Assembly (NCBI GenBank): GCA_947456525.1
Contig: CANGRI010000003.1
Coordinates: 1-42,680, forward strand
Direction of reading: 5' to 3'
From: Opitutia bacterium
GTDB lineage: Bacteria; Verrucomicrobiota; Verrucomicrobiia; Opitutales; UBA953
Length of the DNA stretch: 42,680 nt
Position numbers and translations under genes: made by a program. Shown piece after piece: positions 169 to 10,185 of this stretch. The number at the start of each line of letters is the position of its first letter. Within the stretch, counting starts at the first letter, position 1. Below the pieces are notes generated by a model. The model had not been told where the DNA came from and searched no databases. It saw only the letters and a list, made by a program, of their open reading frames with translations.

Positions 169-196
169 TAACCGCCAACCGCTAACCGCTTACCGC
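169..196 (+). repeat. Heptanucleotide tandem repeat, consensus YAACCGC, four units
   Basis: Directly after the dehydrogenase stop codon come four 7-bp units: TAACCGC, CAACCGC, TAACCGC, TTACCGC. The array fills most of the 38-bp gap and ends 8 bp before the kdgD ATG. The same heptamer recurs near 7950-8080 between other genes, so it is a dispersed intergenic repeat and not a feature of this operon. It resembles in layout the short tandemly repeated heptamers described in cyanobacteria, without being the same sequence. Function is unknown. Confidence 0.85.
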
Positions 197-7137: not shown

Positions 7138-7941
7138 CTAGGCCCGACGACGCAGAACCAGCAGGACATCCGAATACTCCATGTCGATCTTGCGAGTCGA
7201 ATTCAGGTCGTAATGGAAGTCGTGGCAGGCGACCAGACGGAGCGACGGCACCTTGGCGATCAGGGCTTTCAGTTCGGCGGGCGAGTAGGTGCGGAAGTCC
7301 CAGAGGGTCTCCTCGACACGGGTCTTCCCCTTCTCGGTGATGCGCATGCGGGTGCGCATCGCTTCGGTGCGGGACTTGCGGTCCGCCGGAGCGGACCAGG
7401 TGTCGCTGACGACGCGGATGCCGGGCTTGCGGCCGATCCAGCGTTCATGGTCGGGCGGGCTGTTCTTGTAGTCGGTCAGGTGGAGTCCGAGCAGCAGCAA
7501 GCCGCCGGGACGGAGAGCGGCGGCCATGCGACGGAGAGAGCTTACCGCGCCCGCTTCGGAATCGATATATTTGAACGTGCTGACGAAGCAGTGGGCGACG
7601 TCGTAGCGGGCGCCCTGGGGGACCTTGAAATCCTGGAGGCGATCGCGCCAGACCCTGCCCTTCAGTCCCTTGGCCTTGAGGCGGTTCTTGGCGAAGGCAA
7701 TCTGGTGCTTATTGAGGTCGAAACCATGGACGACATGACCGCGAGCCGCGAGGGACTCCAGCAAACGGCCGGAACCGCAGGCCGGCTCGAACACGCGCAT
7801 CGGACCGTCCAATTTCGGCCCATGCTTCTTCATGATGCCCTCGATGAAACGCGTCTCCTTCTTCGTGTAATCCGCGTACACCATGTCGTAATACAACGGC
7901 GAGTCGTACCACGCGGTGGCAGATTGCTTAGGAGATGACAA
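7138..7941 (-). CDS. Class I SAM-dependent methyltransferase
   Basis: A 267-residue cytosolic protein with the SAM-binding motif I at residues 50-60 (VFEPACGSGRLL) and an acidic residue at the end of strand 2 (VHGFDLNKHQ). The only start that keeps the N-terminal segment is TTG at 7941; the next ATG would remove residues 1-19. The fold is intact, but nothing points to a substrate. It lies 147 bp downstream of thiC and 46 bp upstream of the SGNH gene on the same strand. Its upstream region carries the YAACCGC repeat in reverse orientation, only about 9 bp from the start codon. Confidence 0.8.
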   Translation of the reverse strand: MSSPKQSATAWYDSPLYYDMVYADYTKKETRFIEGIMKKHGPKLDGPMRVFEPACGSGRLLESLAARGHVVHGFDLNKHQIAFAKNRLKAKGLKGRVWRDRLQDFKVPQGARYDVAHCFVSTFKYIDSEAGAVSSLRRMAAALRPGGLLLLGLHLTDYKNSPPDHERWIGRKPGIRVVSDTWSAPADRKSRTEAMRTRMRITEKGKTRVEETLWDFRTYSPAELKALIAKVPSLRLVACHDFHYDLNSTRKIDMEYSDVLLVLRRRA

Positions 7942-7948
7942 AGGTGTC

Positions 7949-8080
7949 AGCGGTTGGCGGTTAGCGGATAGCGGTTGGAAAAGAGACTACCGAGGCGGGT
8001 TCGAACATAGGGCAAAGAGACGTCATCGCGGCTAGACGGGTGGGTTTGGGTTCTAACCCAACCGCCAACCGCTAACCGCT
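7949..8080. repeat. Inverted pair of YAACCGC heptamer arrays around a ~79-bp spacer
   Basis: On the minus strand 7978-7951 reads CAACCGC, TATCCGC, TAACCGC, CAACCGC; on the plus strand 8059-8079 reads CAACCGC, CAACCGC, TAACCGC. The arms face each other and can pair over about 20 bases with one mismatch per heptamer, making a long hairpin in thiC read-through RNA. The whole 147-bp gap between thiC and the methyltransferase is made of these arms and the spacer. It could act as a processing or termination structure, or be a small non-autonomous element; no target-site duplication is evident. Confidence 0.75.
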
Positions 8081-8088
8081 CAAACCCG

Positions 8089-10185
<2,097 letters not shown>

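Follow-up and report, generated by a model that had tools for sequence, protein, structure and literature searches.

A pair of YAACCGC heptamer arrays beside thiC in an Opitutales bacterium is probably one copy of a genus-specific intergenic inverted-repeat element

Several bacterial phyla are known to contain intergenic heptamer repeats, for which no function or mechanism is accepted. In Xanthomonas the GGGAATC/GGGNATC repeats form 186 and 183 arrays, prefer four units and are 89-93 % intergenic, and the GGGAATC repeats make up 70-75 inverted pairs per genome with an unexplained function (PMC4692102). Their G-rich strand is sense just after stop codons and antisense just before start codons, divergent gaps are under-represented, and a detailed proposal ties the preference for four units to G-quadruplexes (PMC4692102). 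A Nostoc heptamer repeat, GGGGA(C/T)T, is of the same kind (PMC4692102). The TAACTGA repeats of Beggiatoaceae, cyanobacteria and some Bacteroidetes are direct repeats, with one inverted case, that usually precede the start codon by 1 nt and share one orientation (PMC4679880). An element of four GGGACCG heptamers occurs in 49 copies in Geobacter metallireducens (PMC2700814).

We analysed a window of 42,680 nucleotides (contig CANGRI010000003.1, positions 1 to 42,680) from an Opitutia bacterium whose genome assembly (G000; GCA_947456525.1) comprises 1.8 Mb in 144 contigs and is 64.6 % complete. Two arrays, one on the minus strand (7949-7976) and one on the plus strand (8058-8080), occupy the gap between thiC and a methyltransferase-like gene together with the 79 bp that separate them. 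The methyltransferase-like gene neighbours thiC in most congeners too. A preliminary description of this DNA had reported the inverted pair filling the gap and a third array at 169-196, and all of these are present. The features are:

169-196, plus strand: lone four-unit array occupying the 39-bp gap that separates the upstream gene (stop codon TGA, 163-165) from a 5-dehydro-4-deoxyglucarate dehydratase gene (ATG at 205)
7138-7941, minus strand: methyltransferase-like gene with a TTG start (CAA at 7939-7941 on the plus strand), matching several SAM-methyltransferase models, all below their curated cut-offs
7942-7945, no strand: AGGT, the outer terminus of the left arm, for which the family consensus reading outward is nnACCT (126 arrays)
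7949-7976, minus strand: left arm of four units, lying 7 nt from where the methyltransferase-like gene starts and reading RGCGGTT on the plus strand and CCAACCGCTATCCGCTAACCGCCAACCGCT on the minus strand
7979-8057, no strand: spacer (loop) of 79 bp, without conservation in congeners, including a small inner inverted repeat TTGGGTTctAACCCAA that adjoins the right arm
8058-8080, plus strand: right arm of three YAACCGC units, ending 8 nt short of the thiC stop codon
8084-8087, no strand: ACCC, a variant of the right arm's outer terminus ACCT
8089-10137, minus strand: thiC, phosphomethylpyrimidine synthase (NF006763, 1033.8 bits, above cut-off), with its stop codon as TTA at 8089-8091 on the plus strand

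Within the window we found eight matches to two units (≤ 2 mismatches) against 1.38 expected, a count reached by none of 100 shuffles, and the whole genome holds 73 matches to three units (≤ 2 mismatches) in its 1.8 Mb. In the congener Opitutae bacterium BS6 (G015, 1.565 Mb) we counted 52 arrays compared with none in a fifth-order Markov control of the same size, which was used because a control with the pattern read backwards gave inflated counts, CAACCGC backwards being a rotation of CAACCGC. Intergenic DNA makes up only 14 % of this genome, yet 51 of the 52 arrays are intergenic (binomial p ~1e-42). Genes in G015 were called with a simple home-made codon-model script, and their starts are approximate. 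The preliminary description had named a chance-level count, or no tendency to lie between genes, as findings that would speak against a repeat family; given 52 arrays against none, 51 of them intergenic, neither was observed.

The unit is YAACCGC, in which Y is divided about 50:50, the two A positions are variable (89 % and 81 %) and CCGC is almost invariant. Conservation extends beyond the units at both ends of an array. In 126 arrays taken from three species the consensus of the outer end is CCGC-Y-n-n-Y-ACCT, with the last four positions at 75 % (A), 84 % (C), 89 % (C) and 68 % (T). That of the inner end is C(C/T)A-ACCGC preceded by pyrimidines, with the inner C at 98 %. The number of units is narrow, with 57 arrays of three, 59 of four and 13 of five (n = 134). 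Arrays no more than 520 bp apart are arranged as '-+' in 41 cases, '++' in three, '--' in two and '+-' in none, and in G015 an opposite partner lies on the inside of 23 of the 52 arrays and on the outside of none. A full copy would have the form AGGTnnn-(RGCGGTT)3-4-GGgaa - loop - ttcC-(CAACCGCY)3-4-nnnACCT. The remaining 29 arrays of G015 are without a recognisable partner, a proportion that we count against a paired element; they may be copies whose partner was lost or not kept.

Placement relative to genes follows a rule. In G015 the outer end points toward the nearer gene in 43 arrays and away from it in eight (n = 51), and other repeat families in the gaps that hold YAACCGC arrays follow the same rule. 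Arrays facing a stop codon often lie 0-20 nt from it, and those facing a start mostly lie 55-80 nt from the predicted, approximate start. YAACCGC pairs occur in convergent, tandem and divergent gaps; in G015 convergent gaps are over-represented (15 compared with 7.3 expected) and divergent gaps, which hold ten arrays, are somewhat under-represented. On the reading as an inverted-repeat element, the strict '-+' order would arise because an inverted repeat has no direction, and each arm automatically faces the gene on its own side.

The intergenic DNA of G015 has further regularities. Purines tend to predominate in the left half of a gap and pyrimidines in the right half. Many gaps contain nested palindromes, with CTCAAAGGGAAACCGG..CCGGTTTCCCTTTGAG elements and REPs of the GTAG type enclosed by heptamer arms. 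Additional short tandem families with a fixed gene side are CCCCTN (period 6), CAGTCCTCNNNN (period 12) and TTTGCACY (period 8).

We consider it somewhat more likely than not, at roughly 0.55, that the pair beside thiC represents a single copy of a non-coding inverted-repeat element, specific to the genus, that is amplified and lost in intergenic space, most likely as passenger DNA. Amplification of whole copies is argued from the combination of variable copy number, conserved ends and dispersed loci. Such copies would tend to sit against a gene boundary, just past stops and mostly tens of bases before starts; the loop would be free to change, often by taking up other repeats, while the arms persist. 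Beyond filling tolerated space the element most likely has no cellular function, in the manner of REP or MITE elements, and its behaviour is closer to that of passenger DNA than to that of a gene switch. The clustering 0-20 nt past stops counts against a passenger, as it might also mean that the arrays act at the 3' ends of mRNAs. An alternative is that the arrays are simple tandem repeats produced by replication slippage at boundaries that tolerate drift, with neither transposition nor function. The units do drift, their number varies between orthologs (six in G014, Opitutia bacterium UBA953, and three in G015 at locus L298_0; likewise at L302_0), and heptamers are reported to be over-represented among bacterial simple repeats (PMC4692102). 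However, three or four units account for 116 of the 134 arrays and long perfect arrays are absent; this dominant length and the defined ends beyond the units are not expected from simple slippage. Nor would slippage alone put a new array at a new locus, and one unit recurs at dozens of unrelated loci, always in '-+' rather than '+-' pairs. Slippage is a distinctly unlikely explanation.

The second alternative is that the arms pair in the transcript and that the resulting hairpin ends, protects or regulates the mRNA, as a terminator, an RNase barrier or a control of translation. The thiC gap does fold strongly (-55.2 kcal/mol, z = -3.55), so the long imperfect hairpin of the preliminary description can form, and the proximity of stop-facing arrays to stops, the excess of convergent gaps and the presence in the thiC gap of one congener (G008) of a different heptamer in both arms would suit a role of this type. 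What the tests did not bear out is that the hairpin itself matters. The two arms of one locus do not complement each other better than arms combined across loci (mean scores 17.9 and 18.4, permutation p = 0.97), and RNAalifold on nine orthologous thiC gaps gave a slightly unfavourable covariation term of +0.47. With arm covariation absent in both analyses, selection on the hairpin was rejected; the ability to fold is a by-product, because both arms share one unit. No terminator-like site, a GC stem followed by a U-run, is present in the thiC gap, and two arrays (L303_0 and G015 C14 16070) lie beyond a canonical terminator, so an intrinsic terminator was rejected as well. A known structured RNA was rejected on the lack of any Rfam match in the window. 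Further points against a transcript hairpin are the ten arrays in divergent gaps, the thiC gap of G013, whose right arm has decayed while the left is intact, and G006, which dispenses with the gap altogether, having 4 nt between the thiC stop and the next ATG. We regard a transcript hairpin as unlikely; the influence on mRNA ends or translation that the preliminary description had suggested may exist but found no support in these tests.

Species of the genus have orthologous thiC gaps, and nine of them carry arms there around differing loops. G008 has AGGGGAT heptamers at the position of the left arm, and in G001, G003, G009 and G012 the gap holds other sequence. Of 19 array sites from G014 mapped to G015, ten carry an array there and nine do not; for 12 sites from G000 the figures are eight and four. 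About half of the sites thus differ between G014 and G015, the flanks of which are ~93 % identical. Loss does occur, since one gap has arrays in both G000 and G014 and none in G015 (L266_0, L287_0). Arms are kept while loops are replaced at L300_0, at L302_0 and in the thiC gap. At L300_0, G014 and G015 have almost the same outside DNA and arms, and half of the loop is unrelated; a similar replacement is seen within a longer spacer at L302_0. When compact pairs were sought by pattern throughout the genus, the thiC site alone was recovered, in three species, exact matching over variable spacers being too strict. Numbers of 0 to 114 matches per genome together with these gains and losses support the preliminary reading of drift between the units of a living repeat family, here amplified and intergenic.

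Copies of the inverted-repeat element may have spread by a copying or transposition step. Transposition is inferred, because none of the orthologous gaps read (G000 and G014 against G015) was a clean empty site showing a target duplication; clean empty sites are missing because gaps without arrays have been rebuilt with other repeats or unrelated DNA. No cognate mobilising gene was found in a transposase search that covered Y1_Tnp, which counts against mobile copies. Of 55 congeners, 28 have Y1_Tnp (RAYT) genes, the presence of which does not track array number (18 of 31 compared with 10 of 24, p = 0.28). None of 13 RAYT loci has heptamer arrays at its flanks, where GTAGGG palindromes or GGGGTCAGGCCG repeats are found instead. 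RAYT was rejected as the mobiliser, as a link seen in 25 genomes was gone at 55 and the RAYT flanks hold other repeats. The REP/MITE-like mobility of the preliminary description accordingly stands as regards behaviour, with 0-114 matches per genome and gains and losses between species, and fails as regards REP in the strict sense, GTAG being absent and RAYT genes being flanked by other repeats.

The RAYT-like genes themselves fall into recognisable settings. Short ones of ~140-190 amino acids (L311, L314, L315, L316, L317, L319, L321, L322) have GTAGGG palindromes on both sides, e.g. GGTAGGGTCAGCACTGCGTGCTGACCTAG, the typical REP-RAYT arrangement. Longer RAYTs (L312, L313, L318, L320) have GGGGTCAGGCCG..CGGCCTGACCCC flanks in place of GTAGGG palindromes. 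In the genome to which the window belongs, the RAYT-like gene (L280, G000 C73, around 1377-1487) seems to be broken by a stop codon close to its start.

Within its order the YAACCGC family is confined to one genus. Among 273 genomes of the order, matches were found in 13 of 20 from the same genus, in none of the 15 that represent other genera of the family, and in two of 238 from other families, these two having one to four overlapping matches each. In a set of 55 genomes of the genus, 43 have matches, ranging from 0 to 114. Which heptamer family is amplified varies among the congeners. G013 has 104 YAACCGC matches and almost no ATACTCN, ATACTCN is high in G009 and G042, and YATCCCC is high with YAACCGC low in G008, G016, G020 and G057. 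This third family, YATCCCC/GGGGATR, is amplified in these four and a few other genomes, and in the thiC gap of G008 it stands where congeners carry RGCGGTT. A second family, NATACTC, is found in 37 of 55 congeners; in G015 (e.g. C2:138363 and C2:138496) 18 of its 20 arrays are intergenic, most have four units and all five pairs are '-+'.

The unit is also present outside the phylum, in Steroidobacteraceae, where Povalibacter uvarum DSM 26723 has 254 matches and a Steroidobacter assembly has 213. Neighbouring pairs there are '-+' in 12 of 12 cases and arrays mostly have four or five units, with other ends (CCGCT-TC). The unit spectrum is similar in a sample that was drawn by the YAACCGC pattern and is hence biased to it; the likeness to the Opitutales arrays may reflect either common origin or convergence. 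Paired arrays as in the Opitutales genus were seen in CALPIW020000214.1 (L041), CALQLO010000056.1 (L080) and CALQLO010000011.1 (L141), contigs labelled Polynucleobacter meluiroseus and Akkermansia muciniphila, MAG organism names that look wrong; the arrays of L080 and L141 have the ACCT-type ends of the Opitutales genus, and the L041 arms resemble orthologs of the G015 pair C5:84511-84635. Mixed arrays of AACCGTC/AACTGTC/AACCGCC-type heptamers, much longer than those of the Opitutales genus, occur in Desulfobacterales HSG2 (L056, L106, L108) and a Bacteroidetes MAG (L035, L105).

A third alternative is that the arrays are protein binding sites, serving chromosome organisation, transcription or an S1-like translation factor, and are selected at gene boundaries. 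The regular 7-bp spacing, the fixed three or four units and the fixed side relative to genes would fit, as would the closely similar units and pairing in Steroidobacteraceae, and a similar proposal exists for the TAACTGA repeats (PMC4679880). However, full-sized congeners do without arrays (G048 is 99 % complete and has no matches), half of the sites differ between close species, and an informal look at the flanking genes (thiC, kdgD and many others) noticed no common function. We consider protein binding very unlikely, and retain the amplified inverted-repeat element as the better account.

Set beside described elements, this inverted-repeat element shares with REP/RAYT systems the form of dispersed intergenic palindromes and the presence of RAYT genes in the genus, but the GTAG/GGAG-type tetranucleotide that precedes the REP palindrome is absent from the YAACCGC consensus ends. 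As in a MITE, there are terminal inverted arms, a non-coding centre and amplification without a gene of its own; unlike in a MITE, the arms are tandem heptamers, the centre differs between copies and no target duplication was seen. The Geobacter element resembles it in having four tandem heptamers in dispersed, partly intergenic copies, although that element also occurs inside genes and has another unit, and the part of its description used here does not describe inverted pairing (PMC2700814). The TAACTGA repeats are likewise short intergenic heptamer arrays (of 2-6 units) by start codons with a patchy distribution across phyla, but they are direct and bound to starts, whereas the arms described here form inverted pairs found at stops and starts alike. 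Searching the literature for AACCGCTAACCGC gave no match.

The closest resemblance in layout is to the Xanthomonas GGGAATC repeats. Both have a 7-nt tandem period with one or two degenerate positions, about four units and an unexplained function; both are intergenic (51 of 52 arrays here, ~90 % there) and frequently form inverted pairs (41 here, all '-+'); and in both the G-rich strand is sense after stops and antisense before starts (43:8 here, with starts approximate). They differ in turnover, 83 % of the Xanthomonas repeats being common to the two species compared, against roughly half of the array sites in G014 and G015, and in that several unrelated heptamer families obey one rule within one genus here. 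The unit RGCGGTT has GG only, without the GGG tracts required for a quadruplex, and comes from another phylum; we therefore assign the arrays to the wider heptamer kind and not to the GGGNATC repeats. As RGCGGTT and GAGTATN, both without GGG, match the Xanthomonas repeats in unit number, pairing and side rule, the quadruplex is not the general reason for these features. A tentative and rather doubtful extension is that paired heptamer arrays form one cross-phylum class of spacer DNA, whose spread is governed not by unit sequence or quadruplex formation but by a period of 7 nt and an inverted layout; the unrelated families YAACCGC, NATACTC and YATCCCC would then replace each other within one genus while obeying one placement rule, and a near-YAACCGC unit would have been independently amplified in, or transferred to, Steroidobacteraceae. 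Such a class, if real, would imply an undescribed amplification mechanism that favours 7-nt units. A genus with 0-114 matches per species, and with heptamer families whose amplification differs from species to species, is a natural system for studying the origin of such repeats. The YAACCGC arrays belong to a known and unexplained kind of intergenic heptamer repeat, new in this phylum as far as the literature searched shows, and are most likely palindromic passenger DNA.
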